Origin: Paenibacillus protaetiae
GTDB lineage: Bacteria; Bacillota; Bacilli; Paenibacillales; Paenibacillaceae
Direction: 5' to 3'
NCBI RefSeq assembly: GCF_004135365.1
Contig: NZ_CP035492.1
Location: forward strand, 2,340,001 to 2,404,000
Length of the DNA stretch: 64,000 nt
A program made the translations under genes and the position numbers. The notes beneath the pieces were generated by a model. It saw only the letters and a program-made list of their open reading frames with translations. It was not told the origin of the DNA and did not search any database. Shown piece after piece: positions 36,127 through 57,685 of this stretch (positions are counted from its first letter, which is position 1; each line of letters opens with the position of its first letter).

Positions 36127-37190
<1,064 letters not shown>

Positions 37191-44498: not shown

Positions 44499-45590
44499 TC
44501 ATTCTGATGCGGCTGTTGCGGATTCAAGCAATGCCAGTTCGTCCAGCAGCTTGTTTTTGTCAAAATGCTCGCCGATAAATACCGCTACATCCGCCACATT
44601 GCCCTGCGGCGTGATGCGCAAATAATCGGATTCCCGGTACGCATATTGGAATAAAAACCGGCTGGCGGTATCCGTAAACGTCAAGATTCCTTTCGCTCTA
44701 TATACATTATCCGGCAGCCGCTGCAGGAGCGCCTCGAACGCTTCGCTGTCGACCGGGCCGCTCATATAGTGGGTCAGCACCATAACATGCTCATGGGAAT
44801 GATGCACATGCCCCTGCTTATGGCTATGCTCTTCTGCCGTATGCTCCCCGGCCGCTTCATGATGACCGCCGTCATGCGGATGCAGGCAATCCGGCCCGCA
44901 AACATGTTCCTGTACAGGAACATCCTGCAGCGCTGCGCCGCTCCCTATGCCACCGGTCACAGAGCGCTCGCCTGCAAGCCAGCTCCAGTCCCCGATCATG
45001 GAACGGACGGCTGGCGTGACAGGCGCATGCGCATTCAGCTCATGCAGCAGCTGCTGCGCCTCTACAAGCTCCTCCGGCCCCAGCTTGTCTGTTTTGTTCA
45101 GCAGCAGCTTCGTCGCGCAGCGGATTTGTTCCTTCATCAGCTTGTACGTCTGGCTGCGGCTCTCCCGGCTGCGCCGCAGCAGTTCGGGACCGTCAACGAC
45201 CGTGAGCACGGTGCGCAAATCAATGGGCGTATACATCGCGGCTTCCGTTACGCCGTCCATCATTTCCAGCGGATGCGCGGCTCCCGTCGATTCGATCAAG
45301 ATGACATCAGGCTGATGCTCCTGCACGAGATTATAGATTTGCATGCCCAGATCCGCCCGGATCGTGCAGCAAATGCAGCCGCCCAGCATTTCGGCCATCG
45401 GCACGCCGGCATCTACCATCTCCCCGTCCAAATTCACTTCGCCCAGCTCATTCATAATAACAGCGGCCTTCAGCCCTTCCTCCCGGCATCGGGCAATGAT
45501 CCGCGTAAGCAGCGTTGTTTTACCGCTTCCAAGGAAACCGGCCAGCAGATGGACCGGAACCAGCTTGGACAGCGCGTCTTTCTGTTCCAT
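44499..45590 (-). CDS. CobW/ZNG1-type metallochaperone GTPase with His-rich loop
   Basis: The 363-residue protein has Walker A GFLGSGKTTLL, the metal motif GGCICC, Walker B/ESTG (VILIESTGAAHP) and NKTD. A His-rich stretch (HDGGHHEAAGEHTAEEHSHK and HVHHSHEH) lies between the GTPase and the CobW-C domain. COG0523 proteins move zinc or other metals into target enzymes. GGAGG precedes the ATG at 45590; the open frame to 46001 is not coding. I saw no Zur box upstream. Confidence 0.9.
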   Translation of the reverse strand: MEQKDALSKLVPVHLLAGFLGSGKTTLLTRIIARCREEGLKAAVIMNELGEVNLDGEMVDAGVPMAEMLGGCICCTIRADLGMQIYNLVQEHQPDVILIESTGAAHPLEMMDGVTEAAMYTPIDLRTVLTVVDGPELLRRSRESRSQTYKLMKEQIRCATKLLLNKTDKLGPEELVEAQQLLHELNAHAPVTPAVRSMIGDWSWLAGERSVTGGIGSGAALQDVPVQEHVCGPDCLHPHDGGHHEAAGEHTAEEHSHKQGHVHHSHEHVMVLTHYMSGPVDSEAFEALLQRLPDNVYRAKGILTFTDTASRFLFQYAYRESDYLRITPQGNVADVAVFIGEHFDKNKLLDELALLESATAASE

Positions 45591-45756
45591 TTCATATCCT
45601 CCATTACGCTTTGCCAATCCATCGACATGATGCAGATCAGCTTGTTTCTTCCCTTCATTATAACGTGAAATTGCCGGCATTGCCTTATCGTCACGATTGA
45701 ATCGTCGAAGCTTGGAGCATAGTAAAAAGGAAAATGCATAAATTTGAGGTGACCCT

Positions 45757-46493
45757 ATGAACGTAATGAAAGGCGTGTTAGCCCAGATGCTGGCCGTCAG
45801 TATGCTCGTGTCCGCATTATGGCTTGTCTCAGCCTGCGGAAATAAACATGCGGAGCCAAACAACGGGCCGGCAGCATCTTCCGGTGCTGCGGCGGGAGCG
45901 GATGCCGGCGGAGGCACTGACTCCGGAGCAACAGGGTCCATACCCCGGCAGAGGCGGAAGAGGGCAGCAATGCCGGAGGCGCGCCCGGCACGGGCAAACA
46001 AGGAGCCATTCCCGGCATCTCCGCCTCTGATGCGGCAGTTAATATTATGTTTGCGATCCGGAGGCAGGACTTTGGCAATCTCGGCGCTTACATCGACCCG
46101 AAAAAAAACGTATTGCTATATCCCCATATTCAAATCGACAAGAAAAAAGCAGTTACGTTTCAAGCCGGCAAACTGCCCGATCTGACCGACGCCAAAACGT
46201 ATACTTGGGGCTCATCGCCGGACGGGAAAACAGTGAAAGCCACCTTCGGCGACTACTATTCGCATTATATCTATGATCAGGATTATGCCGCTGCCGGCCA
46301 AATCGGCAGAAATGAGCTGATTCAGCCGGATCAAGGCAAATCGAACATTGCTACAGTGTTTCCGGGCGCTTCTTATTTTGACTACTATATAAAAGATGCC
46401 AAAACGGGCGCTTGGAGCAGCCTGATTCTGGTGCTGGAGCAAACAGGCGATACCTGGTATTTAACCGGCATTTTGCACGACGAAGGAAAGTGA
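45757..46493 (+). pseudogene. Lipoprotein, frame broken at a C-run
   Basis: The start (ATG 45757, GAGGTGACCC upstream) gives a lipoprotein signal with lipobox VSAC. After a Gly/Ala linker the frame breaks at four C (45943-45946). The second half (ASDAAVNIMFAIRRQDFGNL, YPHIQIDKKKAVTFQAGKL, SLILVLEQTGDTWYLTGILH) continues in the next frame and ends at 46493. One added C gives 245 residues. The C-terminal part looks like a small secreted domain of unknown role. Confidence 0.75.
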
Positions 46494-46582: not shown

Positions 46583-48058
46583 TTACTTCACTTCAAAACT
46601 TAAATGAATGGCGGGGATCCGGGATCCGGGATGATCCTGCTTGTACGTTAATTGCGGAGCCAGGTATATATCGGGAGTCGTTTTTTGTCCTCTATATATC
46701 CCGGGGTAAAGGTCAATAATATGATAGCCCGTTCCGCCTGTAGCATTAAACGTAAACTTGACCGTGCCCTGGCTGTTAAAACCGCATACATAACCTAAAT
46801 AATTGTTGTCGTAGGTCACATAATAGGCGTTATCAAACTCGGTCCAGCCGACGCCTTTCACTTCCAAAGTCACTTCCGTCCCGTTCGGCCCGGAAACCGG
46901 CGTCATACTGGCGATAGACGGATCAATGCGCAAATAAACTTGGCCGTATACGTCATTGCCGACTGCAAGGTCTAGCCGGTGCGGAATTCCCCCAAGATCA
47001 TCAGGCACTTTAAAGCTGTAATTCAGCTTGCCGCCCGAATCCGTTGTGACAGTGCCAAGCGTTACCTGCTTTTCTTCGAATCCTTTGCCCGAAACACGGC
47101 TGCCCACCATTGTATTCCAAACGAGGCTTATGTCTTGGCCAGCAGGCAGTCCTGCAGCGGCAAGAACGACATCTTCCCCTACAATGCCGGATTCCTTGTT
47201 CAACTTTGCCGTTACGCCCTTCTTAAACTTCGCATCCGGAAGCACAACGCCGCCGTTTGCAGCAGAAGCGGGAGCTTGCTCCACAACATTTTTCAGCTCT
47301 GGTTTTTCATTGGTAACTTCAAAGGAATAAGTGGGAACGGGCAAATATGAATTTGGCGCTTGCTGATGGTTTAAATAGGGAATCCCCAAATAACCGTGCC
47401 ATACGGTAATCGAATGTTTCCCGACCGGCCCAGCCGCACGGAACGTAGCTTTTGCTGTGCCGTTAGTCGATACGGCCGAAATAAGCCCGGTTAATTTATT
47501 ATCATAACTGACCTGCCAATTGCTTTCCATCGATGTCCAGCCGATTCCTTCTGCTTCGATCGTAATTTCAGTTCCGATCGGACCGGATGCCGGGGACATG
47601 GAAAAGGTGGTCTCTACAAAAAAGTTGGATTGCGCGACAAACTGGTTATTTTGACGGATGTAGACTGTGTGATCGCCGCCAAAATCAACCGGCACATGAA
47701 AGGTGCCTTCCCAGTTCCCGTTGGCATCGGTCGTCCCTTGAACAACAATGAGCTGCTTCTGTGTATATTCCGGCTGCACAAATGTATAAATGCCATCCAG
47801 CTTATAGCTGCCTTCAACATCCATCCAAACGGCTTTAACCGGCTTGCCAGGCGCAAGCCCGGAAGCTTGAAAGTGAACTTCTGAACGGACCGGACCGGCA
47901 TCCTGCTCCAAAACAAGCTTCCCGGTCATTACGGGAAAGCTGCTCCCGTTCTCCGCAGCAGACAGCGAAGGTGCGGCCAAGGCATATACACCCGCCACAA
48001 AAGTAAAAATAAGCGCATATTTGATCAAGAGGTTTGGCAGTTTCATAGATTGGTTCAT
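46583..48058 (-). CDS. Secreted protein with two tandem Ig/IPT-like modules
   Basis: The 491-residue protein has a signal peptide (YALIFTFVAGVYALAAPSLS). Two copies of a module follow; each has an Ig-like part (VHFQASGLAPGKPVKAVWMD; VVLAAAGLPAGQDISLVWNT) and an IPT-like part (SPASGPIGTEITIEAEGIGW; TPVSGPNGTEVTLEVKGVGW). It should be extracytoplasmic and may bind a ligand or wall polymer. The start is uncertain among 48085, 48058 and 48046, since GGGGA sits awkwardly for each. Confidence 0.7.
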   Translation of the reverse strand: MNQSMKLPNLLIKYALIFTFVAGVYALAAPSLSAAENGSSFPVMTGKLVLEQDAGPVRSEVHFQASGLAPGKPVKAVWMDVEGSYKLDGIYTFVQPEYTQKQLIVVQGTTDANGNWEGTFHVPVDFGGDHTVYIRQNNQFVAQSNFFVETTFSMSPASGPIGTEITIEAEGIGWTSMESNWQVSYDNKLTGLISAVSTNGTAKATFRAAGPVGKHSITVWHGYLGIPYLNHQQAPNSYLPVPTYSFEVTNEKPELKNVVEQAPASAANGGVVLPDAKFKKGVTAKLNKESGIVGEDVVLAAAGLPAGQDISLVWNTMVGSRVSGKGFEEKQVTLGTVTTDSGGKLNYSFKVPDDLGGIPHRLDLAVGNDVYGQVYLRIDPSIASMTPVSGPNGTEVTLEVKGVGWTEFDNAYYVTYDNNYLGYVCGFNSQGTVKFTFNATGGTGYHIIDLYPGIYRGQKTTPDIYLAPQLTYKQDHPGSRIPAIHLSFEVK

Positions 48059-48120
48059 TCCCCGTTTCAGCTTAATAGGTCGCATGTGTCATGGATTCCG
48101 GCATACCGGAATGAAATAAA

Positions 48121-48182
48121 TAAAAAACGGCCGGAGCGCGCTCATCCTCTATCTCGATGCACGTTCTCTCGGCCGCCGTTTA
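48121..48182 (-). terminator. Terminator of the 48223-48987 gene
   Basis: ACGGC-GGCC pairs with GGCCGT over a long loop; TTTTTTATTTATTT follows on the minus strand. Confidence 0.55.
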
Positions 48183-48222
48183 TCATGCAATATGATTTAC
48201 GAATCGTGATGAAAGTTCATCT

Positions 48223-48987
48223 TTAGTTCGCCGGTGCAGCTGTTTGGTCTGCAGCAACAATTGTAATCAACGAAGGCATAACGTTAAACGGTTTATACTC
48301 GCCTTTCAGCGTATCCGTCTCTGCCGTCACGGAATAATTCAGCGTACCGGTAGGCGTATCGCCCGTAATTTTGTAAGCGACTGTCCAAAACTTCTCTGCT
48401 CCCGGCGTTTCAGGCGGATGTTCGCCAAGCGTCATGTCCAGCACTTCACCGGTCGACAGATGCAATTGAAGTTTTGCATTTTCAGCTAATTGTCCGGTTT
48501 CAGAGTTAACAGCTTTCATGCGGAAAATGATGGTGTCTCCCACGACAAAGCGGTTTTGCACAATGCAGCCTCCGAGTTGGGATACGGTATCCCCATAGAC
48601 GACCAGCTTAGCGTTATACGTAATTTCAACGCTTTTTGTTTTGTTGTTCCAGTTCACTTTGGATGCTCCTGCAGCTTGTGCCAAATCGCGGGCAAGCGCC
48701 ACCGGCACGCCGTTGTTCAGCAGAACCTGAATCGTTGTGCCGTTGATTACAGCCGTTTTCTTGTCTGCACTAAGCGTGTACGATACGCCTGCCACACTGC
48801 TAAAAGCGGCGATATCCACATACGTTTGCCCGGCAGATGTTATGTAAGTACTAGATGATTGTACGGCTCTTCCGTTTACAGATACGTTAACGGATGCAGA
48901 ACTGCTTGCCATTGCCACCGCAGGCACTGCCAGTGCAATAGCCCCTGCCACGATCATGGCTTTTGTCAACTTGCCGGCTTTTAACAT
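48223..48987 (-). CDS. Secreted protein with copper-amine-oxidase-N-like stalk domain
   Basis: The 254-residue protein has a signal peptide (MIVAGAIALAVPAVAMA), a stalk domain of the Cu-amine-oxidase N1 type (VNGRAVQSSSTYITSAGQTY, VDIAAFSSVAGVSYTLSADK, ARDLAQAAGASKVNWNN) and a beta-rich C-terminal domain. Despite the name this domain is not an oxidase; in Paenibacillaceae it is a common surface module. GGGGGAAAAACG precedes the ATG at 48987. It lies downstream of the B12 operon but has its own promoter. Confidence 0.75.
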   Translation of the reverse strand: MLKAGKLTKAMIVAGAIALAVPAVAMASSSASVNVSVNGRAVQSSSTYITSAGQTYVDIAAFSSVAGVSYTLSADKKTAVINGTTIQVLLNNGVPVALARDLAQAAGASKVNWNNKTKSVEITYNAKLVVYGDTVSQLGGCIVQNRFVVGDTIIFRMKAVNSETGQLAENAKLQLHLSTGEVLDMTLGEHPPETPGAEKFWTVAYKITGDTPTGTLNYSVTAETDTLKGEYKPFNVMPSLITIVAADQTAAPAN

Positions 48988-49078
48988 CGTTTTTCCCCCA
49001 ATGAAATAATATGGCTGTTGAAGAAAGCAATTTCCGATAATTAAGAATATTTGGTTGATTCTTCCACATCCACGAAAC

Positions 49079-49107
49079 ATTGTACCAGAAAAATTTAAAA
49101 CTGAGAA
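49079..49107 (-). promoter_or_regulatory. Sigma-A-like promoter of the 48223-48987 gene
   Basis: TTCTCA, 17 bases, TACAAT with an extended TGG before it (minus strand). The start would be about 85 bases before the ATG. Confidence 0.5.
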
Positions 49108-49237: not shown

Positions 49238-49965
49238 TTACGGTTCAATAAGCCCGTATTTCGTTTTTATTCTTTCCAGCTTCTCCAGCATCGGCCTCGC
49301 GAGCACGAGCAGAAATAGAACAGTGGAAATCGCGTGCACCATATCAAACCAGAAGCCTGAAGCATACGCCGCCCATAAAGCTTCACGGGAAAAACGGGGC
49401 GTAAACATCATCACTGAGCCGATATTAATGATGCCGCCATAAATAAAAAAGGCAGCCAGCCCCCAAACAAAGCAAGCACAAGCCTGCTGCGCGGCAGCTT
49501 GCTCTTATGGAACAGCAAGCCTGCAGCAAAACCGATAATGCCAAAGCAAAACATTTGCCAAGGCGTCCACGGCCCTTGCCCGAAAAAAAAGTTGGATACA
49601 AACCCGGCCGTCGCTCCGACCAAAAAACCGGCTTCCGCTCCCAGGCTGACCCCGGCAATCATAACAATAGCGACAACCGGCTTAAACTGCGGCAGCATGA
49701 AAAAGGCCGCCCGGCCCGCCACGGCAATAGCTGCCAGCACGGCTATCACAATCAGCTCGCGCGCCTGCGGCTTTCGTCGTTCGAATACAAGCGCAAACGG
49801 CAGTATCGTGTACAAAATAATGAGCAGGCTTATAAAATAATATTTACGGTCGTTCAGCACAAATATGCCGAGCAAAATCGTGGCCGGAATTACAATTAGA
49901 ATTAATAGCGCCGCTACAAGCGTCCGGCGGTTTATACCGGCTCGTGCTGTTTGCTGCCTATGCAT
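49238..49965 (-). pseudogene. ECF transporter S component (putative cobalamin), frame broken at a G-run
   Basis: The first frame encodes membrane helices (LVAALLILIVIPATILLGIF, AVLAAIAVAGRAAFFMLPQF, AGFLVGATAGFVSNFFFGQGPWTPWQMF) typical of ECF S subunits. It breaks at five G (49460-49464). The next frame supplies the missing C-terminus (LAAFFIYGGIINIGSVMMFT, GFWFDMVHAISTVLFLLVLA) and ends at 49238. One added G gives 242 residues. The S subunit binds the vitamin and docks on EcfT. The ATG at 49965 lies inside the ATPase gene, with AGAGGAT upstream. B12 as substrate is inferred from the riboswitch. Confidence 0.8.
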
Positions 49966-51701
49966 AACCGGATCACATCCTCTACCGTTATTCCGCCTGG
50001 CCACTTGTGCCGGCTCATCCGGTTGGCGGCCGTCGTATAAAAGCTGTTGCCGGCAAAAAATGGCTTTGCGGTATCCGTCGCGATGATGCTTCCGTCAAAA
50101 AACAAGGAGCATACATCCCCGTATTCCGCGCAAAATTCAATGTCATGCGACACCATAATGATCGTAACGCCTTTATGTTTCAGCCTGCGGAGCAGCGCTG
50201 CCAGCTTCGCTTTAAAAAACGCGTCCAGCCCCTTCGTCGGTTCATCCAGCAGTAAAATAGCCGGTTCCGTCAGCATAACTTTCGCCAGCGCCGCCCGCTG
50301 CTGCTCTCCGCCGCTTAAATCGTACGGGTGGCTGTCCAGCAGCTGCTCCAGCTCGGTAAAACGGACCATGTCCGCAACCTTCGCCGCCCGCTCTTCCTTG
50401 GACAACTTCGATTGAGACAACATTTCGAGCAAATCCTGCCTGACTGTTTTTTTCACAAATAACGTTTGCGGGTTTTGCGGCAGCAGGCTGATGATGGGCA
50501 GAGGCGAGCGCGTTCCCTTGCCTGACTTCAGCAGGTTCGTTCCCCCGGCCGTGATTTTCCCCCTGTACGGGTGAAGCAGGCTGCCTATCAATGAAAGCAT
50601 AGTCGATTTGCCCGTGCCGTTGCCTCCAACGATGCAGTACAGCTCTCCTTTGCCTGCCTGGAACGACAAGCCTTTAATAATATCTGCGCCATGTTTGTCA
50701 TAGCGGAACCAGACATCTTTAAACGATACAACCGTTTCCCTCCCGCTTTCCTTTGGGCGGCCCGCTGTCCCGTTCCCGGCTGCTTCACCGGCGTTAAGGG
50801 CAGCGCCGGCATACGCGCTGCCGGATAGACTGCTCTGCCGGACATCCGATTGCTCCGGCTGCCCGCCCGCTGCGGTCCGGTTCAGCCATGCCCGCCCTTC
50901 CTTGACTGTAAGCGGAAGAGCAAAGCCTTCCCCTTCGCCAGCGCCGGCATATATCCGCATCGGGGAAGGCATAGCCGCAAACATCGGATGATTCATGCGG
51001 AGCAGCTTGCCGCCCGCTTCGCGGGGCGTATCGCTGGCGATGATACGCCCTTCATCCATGACGATCAGCCGGTCGGCAAGCGGAATCGCCTCCTCCAGCC
51101 GGTGCTCCGTCATCAAGATGGTAGTCCCAAGCTCCCGGTTGATTTTCCCCAATGTTGCCAGAAAATCAGCTGCCGCGATTGGATCAAGCTGAGAGGTAGG
51201 CTCATCTAATATAAGGACCCGCGGCTGCATCGCCATAACGGACGCCAGATTCAGCAGCTGCTTTTGACCGCCTGACAGCTCGCTGACATTGTGGAGAAAC
51301 CAGGTCTGAATGCCAAAAAAATGAGCCATTTCCGCTACCCGGAGGCGAATTTGCGGTGTGCCCCACCCCAGGCTCTCGAGCCCGAACGCAAGCTCATGCC
51401 AAACTTTGTCAGTGACGATGCCATTGTCCGGATTTTGCTGCACAAAGCCGATTTCCGCCGCTTGCGTGCGGAAGCCGATATCTTCGATCGGCTTCCCGGC
51501 ATAAAGGATGCGGCCTTCCCGTTTGCCATGCGGAGCAAGCACGGATTTGAGCTGGCGCAGCAATGTGCTTTTGCCGCTTCCCGATCTGCCGCAAATGACG
51601 GCAAATTGTCCCTGCGGAATGGAAAGATTTATGCCGGATAGAACCGCATTCTTTTGGCCGGGATAAGTAAAGGTTACATTTTGGATTGAATAGATTTCCA
51701 T
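49932..51701 (-). CDS. Fused ECF transporter ATPase (EcfA-EcfA')
   Basis: The 589-residue protein has two ABC domains in one chain. Domain 1: GRSGSGKSTLLRQL, LSGGQKQLLNLASVMA, RVLILDEPTSQLDP. Domain 2: GGNGTGKSTMLSLIG, LSGGEQQRAALAKVML, AILLLDEPTKGLDA. A linker of about 60 residues rich in Gly/Ser/Ala joins them. Most Firmicutes have separate EcfA and EcfA' genes. GGAGG precedes the ATG at 51701, which overlaps ecfT by 28 bases. Confidence 0.92.
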   Translation of the reverse strand: MEIYSIQNVTFTYPGQKNAVLSGINLSIPQGQFAVICGRSGSGKSTLLRQLKSVLAPHGKREGRILYAGKPIEDIGFRTQAAEIGFVQQNPDNGIVTDKVWHELAFGLESLGWGTPQIRLRVAEMAHFFGIQTWFLHNVSELSGGQKQLLNLASVMAMQPRVLILDEPTSQLDPIAAADFLATLGKINRELGTTILMTEHRLEEAIPLADRLIVMDEGRIIASDTPREAGGKLLRMNHPMFAAMPSPMRIYAGAGEGEGFALPLTVKEGRAWLNRTAAGGQPEQSDVRQSSLSGSAYAGAALNAGEAAGNGTAGRPKESGRETVVSFKDVWFRYDKHGADIIKGLSFQAGKGELYCIVGGNGTGKSTMLSLIGSLLHPYRGKITAGGTNLLKSGKGTRSPLPIISLLPQNPQTLFVKKTVRQDLLEMLSQSKLSKEERAAKVADMVRFTELEQLLDSHPYDLSGGEQQRAALAKVMLTEPAILLLDEPTKGLDAFFKAKLAALLRRLKHKGVTIIMVSHDIEFCAEYGDVCSLFFDGSIIATDTAKPFFAGNSFYTTAANRMSRHKWPGGITVEDVIRLCIGSKQHEPV

Positions 51702-52567
51702 TTCCGTTCCTCCGCGAGTTGAATACATACGGGCAGCAGGCAAAACACCGCATAAGCCGCGTACAGGATGATGCTGACTCCATCCGTTTCCGGCGTTTTC
51801 ACCGACGGGAAAAACCGGATTCGTGTCCGTCCAGCCGCCGCGCCTGCCGCCATAACAAGCAGCAGAACGGCCATGAACAAACCGGTGATTTTATCCCGGG
51901 AATCAAACCGGAACAGTGAGAAGCTGCTTCTGCCCGGCAACCCGTACCCGCGGGATTTCATCGAATCGGCCGTTTCGATCGCATTTTCAAGCGCCCAGGT
52001 GGTCAAAATCGAGACCATGGTCAGTCCGTTACGTGCCCGCTGCAGCAGATGGCCTTGTGTCATGTCTCTGCCGATTCCGCGCTGTGCTTTCGAAATGACA
52101 GCAAGCTGGCTGCGGTACCGCGGCACAAACCGGAGCGCCATTGATAACATTAAAGATAAGGCAGGCATAAGCCGGCCAAACAAATAAACGAATTTATCCG
52201 ATGTCATAACAGCGTTATAGCATGAAAACCAGATCAGCACGGTTACAAACATAAACCCTGCCGCCGCGCCGTACAATATGGATTCCAGCGTCACCGGATT
52301 GCCGCTGTGCAAATAAAACAATATCGTTACGCCGGCATGGTTAAATGCCGGATTCATCAAGGCTGTCGCAAACCATAACGGCAGCATGTAGAGCAGCAGG
52401 AAGCGGACTGCCCGCCTCCTGTTTAACAGGATGGAATAACTAGCCGCACTGCAAAACGAGATGATTTGAAGCACGGGATGCATAAACAGCATGGCAAACG
52501 CCAAGACGGCGGCAAAATAAACGAAGTTAACGGCCGGATGGAACGATGAGAAGCTGTCTCTTCTCAC
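51674..52567 (-). CDS. ECF transporter T component
   Basis: The 297-residue protein has about six membrane helices and the coupling-helix motif ETADSMKSRGYGLPG (the Arg-Gly that contacts the ATPases), as well as ALRFVPRYRSQL. It links the S subunit to the ATPase. Its ATG overlaps the stop of the DUF4430 gene (ATGA), so the two are coupled. Confidence 0.9.
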   Translation of the reverse strand: MRRDSFSSFHPAVNFVYFAAVLAFAMLFMHPVLQIISFCSAASYSILLNRRRAVRFLLLYMLPLWFATALMNPAFNHAGVTILFYLHSGNPVTLESILYGAAAGFMFVTVLIWFSCYNAVMTSDKFVYLFGRLMPALSLMLSMALRFVPRYRSQLAVISKAQRGIGRDMTQGHLLQRARNGLTMVSILTTWALENAIETADSMKSRGYGLPGRSSFSLFRFDSRDKITGLFMAVLLLVMAAGAAAGRTRIRFFPSVKTPETDGVSIILYAAYAVFCLLPVCIQLAEERKWKSIQSKM

Positions 52568-53639
52568 TGCTGACCGCCTGCCATGCTGTTATCGCCTACA
52601 TCCCGGCCAAGGTCGCAAGTATACACCCACTCCACGACGTCCCCGTCCTTCAGCTTATACCGGCTGCTGCCGTAATTCGGGAACCATCCGTTTACTTTGT
52701 ACATCCATCCGCTCAGCTCGCCGCAGTCAAATTCATAGATGTTGTTGATCCCTTCCACATAGTTGCTGTTGTAAATAGGAGTCATCTCGAACTCCATATG
52801 GATTTTGTTGTTTTTCATTTCCCGCAGCAGCACGTCAAATACCGATTCCCCTTCGTAAAAGGTCACCTTTTGCGCTTTATAAATGACGCCGTCCTTCGGC
52901 AGCACCTCTAGCTTATCTTTATTGAGCTGGTCCATATGGTTCAATATGGTTGCCGCCGATACGGAAAGCGTAGCCGTCAACGCCTTTTTATGGTTAATCT
53001 TCGTATCTTGCGGCTCTACCGGCTTTGGTTTGCCCTCCGGCACCGGATCGGTCAAGTACTGATACTTGCCCTCGTCCTTGTCCGGTTTGGCGGTTGAAGC
53101 GCCGCCGGAGCCGGGCTTTGCAGATCGGCTGCCCGTTCCAGGCTGGGCAGCGGCTTTATCCGGCGTGGAAGCTGCCGGCTTGCTGCCGGGCTTCAAGGCT
53201 GGCAGTGCGGAGGGCGGGCTTTCTTCGGAAGCAGCGCTAGGAGAAGCGGCAGCTGCACCAGACGGGCCAGCTTTCCCGGACTGTGTGGGCTGAGCGGACT
53301 GTCCGGACTGCTCTGCAGCAGTACCGCCGCCGCTGGCAACCGCGTTGGCTTCCCCTTGTTGCAAGCCCGGCAAGCTTTCCGCTGGCGGCGAATACGGAGA
53401 CGCGGCTGGCAGATCCGCCGCTGTACCGATACCGCCCGGCTCCGCAGACGCGGCGGCATTGCCCTGAACAGCGCCGGGAGCAGCGGAATTCCCCTGCTGC
53501 TCCGTGTCCGCCGCAGCCGTTGATACCGGCTTGCCGCTGCCGCTTTGTCCCCGCTGCCGCCCCAGAAAAAGGCGGCTGCCAAAACAGCGGCAACTGCAAG
53601 GCAGACCAGCCCTATTTTAAATTCCGAACGATTAATCAT
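52564..53639 (-). pseudogene. Membrane-tethered DUF4430 (transcobalamin C-terminal-like) protein, frame broken at a G-run
   Basis: The ATG at 53639 has AAGGAGACTTG upstream and encodes a signal anchor (IGLVCLAVAAVLAAAFFWGG). The frame breaks at four G (53549-53552). The next frame gives a Ser/Gly/Ala/Pro linker of some 170 residues and then a DUF4430 domain (VTFYEGESVFDVLLREMKNN, NIYEFDCGELSGWMYKVNGW, LKDGDVVEWVYTCDLGRDVG). One added G gives 358 residues. DUF4430 is the fold of the transcobalamin beta domain, so the protein may hold B12 at the membrane. It lies 11 bases after the SLH gene and overlaps ecfT. Confidence 0.75.
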
Positions 53640-53650
53640 GGCAAGTCTCC

Positions 53651-56600
53651 TTATGCAGCTTTAGGAGCTGCCGTTTGCACGACCACATCCGTCATATCAT
53701 AGAGACGGTTAAGCCCGTTCAAATAACGGTCATAAGCGACAAGCGCGTACATGGCCTGATCGGTCGCCATCAGGTCTACCATGCCCGGCTCCGCGCCGCC
53801 ATTGCCGCTTTGGCCCGGCTTGATGTGATAGAAACCTCCGCTGCCGGCTGCATAACTAAGCAGGACGCTGATCGCGGAATGCCCGTTTTTAATGAACCGT
53901 GCATCTTTCCCCGGATCGATACCGAGTCCGGCTAACGCTACAACCACTTGTGCGGTGCTTTCCGAATTTATGGAACCGCCGCTTGCAAATTCGCCGTTCT
54001 CGTCCTGCGCGGCAGATAACCAGGCAATTGCCAGGTCTACCGCTTGCTTCACCTTAACATCACTGTTGTAATACGGCGTAAGCGATTGGACGGCCATTGC
54101 CGTCACATCCGGATCAGGTACGGTTGCCGCACCATCCAGTGACCAGCCGCCCCCGGCAATTTCGCGGTTTAACATAAAGTCCATCAGAAGTTCTCTTGTC
54201 GTTTGGGTCTTGACGCCATTAACAACAGGAATATCATAATGACCGCTATCCAGTGCCAATAGCGCAAAAATCGGGCCGTTAATCCCTTGCTTGATTACAG
54301 TCTCAAAGTCGGCAAGCGGCGCCGACAGGTCGTAACCTGCAACGTTATGAATGTTGCCGCCCAAAGCCGTTAAAGCCAAAATGACTCTGTCATATTCCGT
54401 GTATTTGACATTGTGCAGCTTGCCGCCCTTTTCCTTCACTGTATTGACTAAATTGGCCTCATACTTGGCATAATAGCCGGCCGGTACCGGAATGCCGGAA
54501 CGGCTTAATCCCAGCACGGTCCACTCGCCGCCAACGCTGGCTACAACCGGATTCGTTACGCTGTGCTGTAAAAATGCTGCGGTTTGGGCAATTTGCGCCT
54601 CCACTTGCGGCTTTGCAGGATCTGCCGCATTTTGATGGGTCAGAAGGTACTCATACGACCGCATCGCGACAACCGCCGCCATCTCTCTCGTCACCGGATC
54701 TTTTGGCGCGAAACGATCGCCATAGCCGGACATGATGCCGGCCGCCGCTGCGGTTTGAACATCTTTCCGGGCCCATTCCGAAACCAGATTCAAATCGCTC
54801 AGGCCCGTTGCTGCTTCGGCCAGCGTCAGGCCAAGCGCTCTCACAATTGTTGCGGCCATTTGTTCCCTCGTCATCAGTGCATAAGGACGGAAGTATCCTC
54901 CATCGCCCTCCACAATGCCGTTCACATAAGCCGCATTGACATAAGGGGCATACCAGCTGTTTGCCGCCACATCTTTAAACGCACTGTCGCCAGCCGTTGT
55001 CTGCTTCAATCCTGATGCTTCAACGAGCAACTTCGTAAATTCGGCGCGCGTAACCGAAGCTTTCGGGCGAAACTCGCCATTGCTGCCTTGAACAAAACCA
55101 AGCTGCGCCGCTTTGCCAATCGCAGAGTACGCCCAATCCGAAATAGAGCCGCCGTCTTTATACAACTGCTCCAGCTTCACCGGAGGTTTCGTACCGTCTT
55201 GACCGCCGGTTCCTTGATCCGCTCCGGTGCCTCCGCCATCGGGATCTTCCGTTCCCCACTGGCTGTTGTCTGCTCCTAAATCTGTACCCAAATTAGTCGT
55301 ATACCGCCATTGCACCGTATCGCCGTCCTCCAGCTCATACAAAGACGCGCCAAACCCCGGATAATCGCCGTTTACGTTATACATCCAGCCGCTGCCGGTG
55401 CCATGGTCAAACTCGCCGTCACCATCAATGGATTCCACATATACGCTGTTATATTGTTCAGACCAGGAATAGTCGTAATGGATTCCCGGCCATCCAGCAC
55501 TCTTTGGAAAACAGTCCATACCGTATCGCCTGGCTGAAGCTCGACTTTAACTGGCGAGACCGTGTATCCGAGCTTAATTGTCTTTTTATCGACGGAAAAA
55601 GTGACATACGCTTTGGAGTCTGGCGGTGTTGCGGAACCTCCGCCTTCTTGGTTATCTTCTTTATCGCTTGCCGTGAATGCGGCATAGTCCGTAAAATGCT
55701 TGGTTTTGATAATAAGGTCAGTGCCGTTGTCATAGGCGTATTCCGGCTTGCCGGCAGCCTCCCCTTCGGAGTCATTCGCATATTTCTGAATAAGATGCGG
55801 AATGCCTTGTTCCAAATAAGCCGCTTGCTTGCCGGCCATGCCTGCCAGCGTTAACGTGACGTACCGGTCGAATTCGGCGCGGTCATTGCCGCCCATCGCA
55901 AATGCTGCTGCAACGCTATCCAGCTGTTTGCTGCTGCCTAGCAGCGATTGAAGCGTTGTTTTCAAGCTGGCATCGGCCGCATCTAGCGATGTTATTAGCT
56001 GCAAATCCAATCCGCTGCCGCTTGTCAGCTGCGTTCCTTGGGCAATAACAGCGGTAACGCCGCCTTTATGGGCTTCCAATTGCGGCAGTGCCGACAGTTC
56101 CGGCAGCGTTACGCGAACCGCACCCGTGCTCTCTTCCGGAATGGTGATCTGATACGTTTGATTGGAGTCCGATGCGTTTACCGTAAAGCTGTAATTCTCG
56201 TTGGCAGCCGGTTCGATAACAACCGGGCCGTCATTGCCCGGCTGTTCTGGCTGCTCCGGAGTGGCTCCCCTTCAAGCTCAACATCCGTCATGTCGTACAA
56301 ATTCGTGCCGCCGTTCAAGAAACGGTCATATGCGACCAGCGCATAAGTGCCTTGGTCCGTCGCCATGCCATTTACACCGCCGGTTGCGGTATGTTTGAAA
56401 CCGCCGGCAGGAACGGCATAAATGAGCATTCCATCTACTGCTGATTTGCCGTTTTTCATAAATCGCGGATCCGTTCCGGGATCAATGCCAAGCGAAGCAA
56501 GCGCTAATACAACCTGCGCCGTACTTTCGCAGTTGCTTAAATAATCGCCGGCTGCGCTTTGATTGTCCGATAACCAGACCAAAGCACGGTCAACGGCTTC

Positions 56601-57344
56601 TTTTACATCCGTACGGGTTGTATAGTATGGCGCCAAGCTTTGAATCGTCATAGCCGTCATATCAACGTCCGGCTTGCTTCCGAATAACGTCCAGCCTGCC
56701 GCGTTGGCAGTTGTGCGGTTGTACTCCAATATTTTGTCTATTAATTTGTCGCGGGTCGTTTGATTAACCCCATCCGCTTGCGGGATATCGTAGTTGTGCG
56801 AGTCCAAAGCAATCAGGGCAAATACCGGGCCGTTTAGCCCTTGTTTAAGCACATAATCAAAATCAGCAAGCGCGGTCAGCAAATTGAACCCTGCTACATC
56901 GGCCACATCTTTGCCGATTGACGTAAGTCCCAATATAGCGCGGGAATGCTCTGTGCTTTTTGTGGAATGAAGCTTCCCGTTGTAAGTCGCCATCAGCTGC
57001 GTAACGGCTTGCTCCACATTGGCGTAATAACTATCGTAATAATTAGCGGGTACCTCGTACCCCGCCCTTGCCAGCGATAAAATCGTCCATTCTCCGCTGC
57101 CGGTTCCAAATACAGGGTTGGCGACCGTCTTCACCATGTAAGCCAAACTGCTTTGCAGCTGCTGGCGAGCCTGCTCCACAACCGGATTCTGCTCCAGCTC
57201 TGTCCGGCTGCCGGCAGAAGACTGCCCGCTTAAAATTTGCGTGCCGTCCGCTTCGTCCGCAAATGCCGTATGTATGTTCGTTGAGCCAATCGAAATAAAC
57301 AGGCTGACCATTATCAGCCAAATGAATCCTTTATTTAATTTCAT
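53651..57344 (-). pseudogene. Giant SLH-anchored transcobalamin-like protein, frame broken twice
   Basis: Two one-base losses (runs at 56267-56270 and 55485-55487) split a gene that, with both restored, is 1,231 residues. In order: signal peptide (1-29); prenyltransferase-like alpha/alpha domain (about 50-355; GEWTILSLARAGYEVPANYY, DYVLKQGLNGPVFALIALDS); a beta-rich linker domain; DUF4430 (about 575-700; SGWMYNVNGDYPGFGASLYE); three SLH domains (about 720-915; YAPYVNAAYVNGIVEGDGGYF); and a second alpha/alpha domain (about 920-1215; GEWTVLGLSRSGIPVPAGYY). SLH domains tie it to the cell wall. The barrel-plus-DUF4430 order is that of intrinsic factor. It is first after the B12 riboswitch; the RBS is AAGGGG. 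Confidence 0.82.
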
Positions 57345-57423: not shown

Positions 57424-57489
57424 AATAAGCGCATCGCAAATAAGCATGCACGAACAAACACCCTCCTATCCATCGTAGAATTTGCGGTG

Positions 57490-57662
57490 TAACGAATCAG
57501 GCAGGTATTCTGGCTCAAGCGTCATCGCTTCCGCGTCCTTCCCGGTTTCCCAGTGGTTTATCGCAGCAGCTCTTCTTATACAGCGGCGGGACCGCGCGAG
57601 ATTTTCACTCGCTTCCCTTTTAACCGGCCTGCAATTGGCAGCAATTGCTTCCGGCACCTGAC
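57490..57662 (-). ncRNA. Adenosylcobalamin riboswitch
   Basis: On the minus strand the order of conserved blocks is GGTGCCGGAAGCAATTGC, AAAAGGGAAGCGAGTGAAAA, CCGCGCGGTCCCGCCGCTGTA (read as CGCGGTCCCGCCGCTGTA), CCACTGGGAAACCGGGAAGG and GATGACGCTTGAGCCAGAAT followed by ACCTGCCTG, the B12 box and its partner. This is a complete class-I cobalamin element. A 101-residue open frame over it is a shadow. Confidence 0.93.
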
Positions 57663-57685
57663 CGTTGCTATTCAGTTTGTAAACC

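Follow-up and report, generated by a model that had tools for sequence, protein, structure and literature searches.

A transcobalamin-like B12 clamp that appears to be split between cell wall and membrane beside an uptake pump in Paenibacillus protaetiae and many relatives

Paenibacillus protaetiae and many related bacteria appear to split a B12 clamp resembling human transcobalamin into one half that is fixed in the cell wall and another that is tethered to the membrane, both encoded beside an uptake pump. The operon concerned lies in a window of 64 000 nucleotides (contig NZ_CP035492.1, positions 2,340,001 to 2,404,000). On balance, this operon is probably a scavenging system for B12 (or a cobamide) made from transcobalamin-type domains, with a cis site in the wall, a second site split between the C-terminal barrel of the wall protein (barrel 2) and the tethered DUF4430 domain of the next gene, and hand-over of the vitamin to EcfS. 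If this is true, B12 itself would join the halves of the clamp while entering the cell.

Organization of the locus

The operon consists of a gene for a secreted wall protein (gene 1), a gene for a membrane-tethered DUF4430 protein (gene 2) and the genes of an ECF-type transporter (Table 1). An earlier note on this DNA had described two alpha/alpha barrels with shared sequence blocks in the wall protein, and this was borne out: both blocks (GPVFALIALDS and GPIFALLALDS) are present and the barrels are 55.6 % identical, with an alignment score of 721, whereas 200 shuffles gave at most 60. The described placement was also recovered, with barrel 1 before the DUF4430 and barrel 2 at the C-terminus, after the S-layer homology (SLH) repeats, which sit between the cis DUF4430 and barrel 2. 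DUF4430 (PF14478) has one match in the wall gene and another in gene 2, on its membrane tether, as had been stated, and no further match in the 4.23 Mb genome. Anchors and signal peptides were assigned by scripted hydropathy and reading by eye, with no trained predictor. The EcfT protein of the window itself had no Pfam (CbiQ) match; PF02361 scored above the cut-off in five of six EcfT orthologues at the same position.

Two proteins with B12-binding domains were identified in the genome, and the search for a single biosynthetic family, CbiD, gave no match in it. This pattern would be expected of a B12 user without anaerobic corrin-ring synthesis, as judged from CbiD alone.

Table 1. Features of the operon in the window of P. 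protaetiae
Feature	Position	Strand	Basis or description
Cobalamin riboswitch (RF00174)	57483-57676	-	Rfam 100.3 bits, gathering score 31.5; just 5' of the operon, same strand
Gene 1, secreted wall protein	53651-57344	-	Barrel 1, stalk, DUF4430, three SLH repeats, barrel 2; three frames
Barrel 1 (alpha/alpha toroid)	56280-57164	-	Profile match; groups in the tree with barrels preceding a cis DUF4430
Frameshift 1, gene 1	56256-56265	-	Adjoins a GGGG run; tblastn of intact relatives switches frame
Cis DUF4430, wall protein	55271-55581	-	PF14478 60 bits genome-wide, 56.7 bits in the ORF
Frameshift 2, gene 1	~55483-55486	-	Inside the cis DUF4430; tblastn against relatives
Three S-layer homology repeats (wall anchor)	54650-55150	-	PF00395 119 bits, three stretches
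Barrel 2 (C-terminal alpha/alpha toroid)	53684-54595	-	Member of a 31-row clade of barrels whose next gene is gene 2, SH-aLRT 99
Gene 2	52564-53639	-	N-terminal membrane anchor, low-complexity linker of ~200 residues, DUF4430
Frameshift in gene 2	~53560-53585	-	Between the membrane anchor and the remainder
Tethered (trans) DUF4430	52594-52932	-	PF14478 65.5 bits; alignment; fold of the model corresponds to the beta domain of transcobalamin
EcfT (CbiQ-like)	51674-52567	-	Position and homology to orthologues above the PF02361 cut-off
EcfA-EcfA', fused ATPases	49932-51743	-	PF00005 twice; TIGR04520 337.6 bits, cut-off 315
EcfS, predicted substrate-binding membrane component	49411-50004	-	PF07155 40.2 bits and PF12822 38.4 bits, both above cut-off

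Frame breaks in genes 1 and 2

The wall gene had been taken for a single gene, which does not hold in the assembly, where it runs in three overlapping frames separated by two breaks (Table 1). Relatives are continuous across both of these breaks by tblastn. Elsewhere in the window, a LacI-type gene (36130-37190, minus strand) is also divided between two frames, which carry adjoining halves of a single Peripla_BP_3 match. Since this unrelated gene is split in the same manner, the frame breaks are likely to be indels in the assembly rather than signs of operon decay. No second genome of the genus was available for comparison, and a frame scan of the window did not on its own tell operon borders from frameshifts. 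Decay of the operon in this strain, with genes 1 and 2 as pseudogenes and a non-functional system, would be in keeping with three frameshifts in two adjacent genes. However, besides the LacI-type gene, a similar pair of overlapping frames occurs at 45757-46490 (plus strand), where one frame has a lipoprotein-like start and the other is the remainder, resembling a frameshift; moreover, the tethered DUF4430 is up to 95 % identical to those of relatives and the EcfA, EcfT and EcfS frames are intact. Decay was therefore considered improbable.

Conservation of the locus in relatives

A similar barrel was detected in 85 of 199 genomes of the family. The scan of species genomes provided 76 named loci (numbered with the prefix L) from Paenibacillus, Lutispora, Tissierella, Clostridium, Terrisporobacter, Ruminococcus, Flavonifractor and others, whose domain layouts were derived with profiles built for this analysis. 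A stand-alone DUF4430 gene was present in all 63 named loci having both ecfT and a barrel, and the order of barrel gene, DUF4430 gene and ecfT was seen in 61 of the 63. No cis DUF4430 scored more than 60 bits in the barrel gene at 28 of these 61 loci, two of which are doubtful, L085 consisting of overlapping frames of an apparent fused gene and L103 lying on a short metagenome contig; L121 and L128 have weak remnants of a cis DUF4430. This solo form comprises a wall-anchored lone barrel adjoining a lone tethered DUF4430, and wherever the start of a solo barrel protein is complete, its N-terminus resembles a signal peptide. The fused form seen in the window is also that of most Paenibacillus. 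Cobalamin riboswitches were located directly upstream of the solo-barrel genes of L073, L076 and L124; in L086, one precedes the fused gene. Searches of plasmid and phage collections yielded only distant matches.

At the ECF loci of Paenibacillus paridis (L073), P. radicis (L076) and Paenibacillus sp. SY21-1 (L084), only the SLH repeats and barrel 2 are encoded. The first two of these species carry the gene for a barrel 1-DUF4430-SLH protein at another locus (L134 and L072). In L064 the two halves are separate neighbouring genes. Because the halves occur apart in relatives, the wall protein of the window looks like the product of joining a complete cis module to a lone barrel.

Gene 1 of many relatives has an extra degenerate DUF4430 at the N-terminus, before barrel 1 (L034, L035, L042, L043, L045, L047 and L048), which the window does not have. 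A further variation affects the transporter genes, with the ECF ATPases and the S component fused into a protein of ~760-1040 residues in L114, L117, L120, L121, L122, L124, L127, L129, L131, L138, L139, L140, L147 and L148.

The DUF4430 domains of gene 2 form a distinct and highly conserved set. All 67 were placed on one side of a branch with a support of 89, from an alignment of few columns, and their median identity was 73 %, compared with 35 % among the cis DUF4430s. The gene 2 anchor is kept across relatives, as an uncleaved hydrophobic helix or a lipobox, and the linker varies from ~80 to 290 residues. The lipobox replaces the anchor in Terrisporobacter and some other Clostridia (L098, L099, L104, L109, L112 and others), and these loci have a longer linker and a gap of 650-800 bases between the barrel gene and gene 2.

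Proposed pairing of barrel 2 with the tethered DUF4430

In a phylogenetic tree of 123 barrels, barrel 2 of the window grouped in the clade of 31 rows noted in Table 1, which contains only barrels directly upstream of gene 2 and in which fused and solo forms are mixed. Barrel 1 fell outside this clade, its closest neighbours being barrels followed by a cis DUF4430. By tree position, barrel 2 of the window is orthologous to the solo barrels of Paenibacillus. Because these stand beside the tethered DUF4430, the comparison of genomes supports this domain as the conserved partner of barrel 2, and a complex of the two is predicted. The proposal of the earlier note, that the C-terminal barrel pairs with the tethered DUF4430, was thus upheld as a conserved partnership, based on the solo barrels at 28 of 61 loci, the orthology of barrel 2, the single group of gene-2 DUF4430s and the riboswitches upstream of solo operons; its physical side stays a prediction. 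A second barrel lacking the necessary residues had been named as grounds for abandoning the proposal. Judged indirectly, from conserved columns, no such loss was seen, with all 39 columns that are conserved in both barrel groups being retained in barrel 2.

Distance matrices were compared across 43 fused loci. Correlations of barrel 2 with gene 2 and the ECF proteins were high (r 0.94-0.96), versus 0.41-0.46 with barrel 1 and the cis DUF4430. Among the 40 closer loci, with a distant group removed, the values were 0.63-0.70 versus 0.57-0.60. Most of the gap is due to the distant group, and these correlations give a weak hint in favour of pairing.

Barrel 2 may alternatively find its partner in the cis DUF4430 of its own or a neighbouring wall protein, with one DUF4430 swapping between barrels. 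The cis DUF4430 of fused proteins lies between both barrels, within reach of barrel 2, several clostridial solo-barrel loci adjoin an upstream wall protein with a DUF4430, and the genomes of such solo loci usually encode another DUF4430 protein elsewhere. However, the tethered domain is the sole DUF4430 in the fetched DNA around the solo barrels of L073, L076, L084, L104, L124, L129 and L133. Barrel 1 also tracks the cis DUF4430 more closely than barrel 2 does, by a small difference in co-variation (Spearman 0.68 versus 0.57). This indicates that a cis partner for barrel 2 has a low probability.

Structure models

AlphaFold2 was used to model barrel 2 of the window together with the gene-2 DUF4430 as one chain, with stops read through, one four-base step and 78 aligned sequences. 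The model consisted of two confident domains with a disordered linker between them (pTM 0.58). The pLDDT of barrel 2 was mostly >90, and its residues 3-302 aligned to the squalene-hopene cyclase barrel with a Z of 23.5. Rat, human and bovine transcobalamin, intrinsic factor and haptocorrin were the top Foldseek matches by E-value (3e-7 to 1e-4). No transcobalamin chain was among the top 50 of VIA-align for the fused pair, and PDB sequence searches with single sequences and profiles found no cobalamin binder. The modelled DUF4430 of gene 2 superimposed on the beta domain of transcobalamin (5no0) with a TM by target of 0.77 and an rmsd of 2.7 Å.

Comparison of both domains together, modelled free of ligand, with holo-transcobalamin gave a TM by target of 0.46-0.55 and an rmsd of 9.7-15 Å, the domains being placed otherwise, and a cis control behaved alike. 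This control, a cis barrel-DUF4430 pair of Tissierella with a short proline-rich linker, was treated identically, was modelled with a pTM of 0.77 and did not reproduce the holo arrangement either (TM by target 0.37-0.53 and rmsd ~10-13 Å against holo structures; 8.3 Å over 342 residues for intrinsic factor). As the cis control missed the holo geometry too, ligand-free prediction is no test of an interface in this barrel/DUF4430 family.

That AlphaFold2 yielded no docked model is compatible with a role of both parts in B12 uptake without a joint site, in which the DUF4430 would act as a simple shuttle, moving between wall and EcfS to deliver the vitamin to the latter, and barrel 2 would bind the corrinoid alone or dock the shuttle without sharing its ligand. 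The extreme conservation of the gene-2 DUF4430 is likewise as expected of a domain that contacts a membrane transporter. However, transcobalamin-type barrels bind cobalamin jointly with a beta domain (PMC5599065, PMC1796856), and at ECF loci solo barrels always adjoin solo DUF4430s. A shuttle of this kind was judged unlikely, with an appreciable chance of being correct.

Proposed mechanism

The proposal of a shared site in barrel 2 and the tethered DUF4430 draws on the vertebrate carriers. The alpha and beta domains of human transcobalamin, when expressed apart, assemble only with cobalamin, and intrinsic factor is alike in this respect (PMC5599065). Cobalamin is bound first by the beta domain, after which the alpha domain closes on top (PMC11107200). 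The affinity of full-length transcobalamin is sub-picomolar and is lower once the domains are separated (PMC5599065). The S component CbrT binds with ~9 nM (PMC5997447).

By analogy, we infer B12 binding, complex formation, an order of events and hand-over for the operon. The cobalamin riboswitch lends indirect support to the predicted binding of cobalamin between the domains. Barrel 1 and the cis DUF4430 would be a complete B12 capture site in the wall. Barrel 2 in the wall and the DUF4430 of gene 2, on the membrane with its long linker, would each supply half of a second site, formed only once B12 joins them. Following the transcobalamin analogy, the tethered DUF4430 would reach into the wall and take the corrinoid first, and barrel 2 would then clamp onto it around B12. 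Opening of this two-protein clamp beside the membrane may free the DUF4430, which would then deliver the vitamin to EcfS for import driven by ATP. The split pair is proposed as the transfer site and the cis module as the capture site because separating the domains lowers affinity and CbrT binds only in the nanomolar range.

More specifically, B12 may act as a molecular glue, with the lone wall barrel and the lone membrane-tethered DUF4430 assembling only around B12, so that the ECF transporter is fed by a two-chain site straddling the gap between wall and membrane that is conserved across several Bacillota classes. This is a tentative reading, held at slightly below even. A split site, if real, would show a Gram-positive route for a large and scarce vitamin across the wall. 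It would also explain how a very tight site can be opened beside a transporter of nanomolar affinity, since separated halves bind more weakly, and would provide a naturally occurring counterpart, in two chains, of the human B12 carriers.

Relation to known systems

Vertebrate transcobalamin, intrinsic factor and haptocorrin combine an alpha/alpha barrel with a beta-grasp domain of DUF4430 type and were the first Foldseek matches of the modelled pair. In these carriers both domains are in one secreted chain, whereas here the second pair is divided between two proteins with wall and membrane anchors and is predicted to serve a bacterial transporter. Passages of Burroughs et al. 2007 (PMC1796856) describe fusions of toroid and SLBB domains in bacteria, together with the CbiO/CbiQ operons of these fusions and second, paralogous SLBB proteins; surface complexes for B12 scavenging were proposed there from genomics. 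Those passages contain no lone barrels, no two-barrel SLH protein and no conserved pair of lone barrel and lone DUF4430, all of which were seen here. ECF-CbrT of Lactobacillus delbrueckii (PMC5997447) is alike in being an ECF-type importer (EcfT, EcfA, EcfA' and S component), in that case for cobalamin; the difference is that the ECF genes here are linked to two extracellular putative binding proteins. The surface-exposed B12 lipoproteins of Bacteroides, as presented in parts of PMC6143338, also capture B12 at the cell surface ahead of a transporter. They are from Gram-negative bacteria of the human gut, and the likeness is one of description, not of fold or sequence.

In a full-text literature search, DUF4430 was named in six papers, and the two of them that also mention cobalamin did not treat bacterial uptake in the passages and titles retrieved. 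The literature searched contained no description of an extracellular binding protein for an ECF transporter, and DUF4430 in a bacterial B12 system appeared only in the genomic prediction of 2007. Parts of the system have thus been known since 2007, and the conserved pair of lone wall barrel and lone tethered DUF4430 seems to be undescribed within the literature searched.

Neighbouring genes

Two more secreted proteins are encoded 3' of the ECF genes (46583-49080, minus strand), one of which resembles the copper amine oxidase N-terminal domain, while the other has a marginal TIG match just below the Pfam cut-off. A copper amine oxidase-like match was found at one other among the first 40 relatives' loci, so the pair is seemingly particular to this strain. 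A putative CobW/ZigA-type GTPase with a histidine-rich stretch adjoins this region (44499-46001, minus strand).
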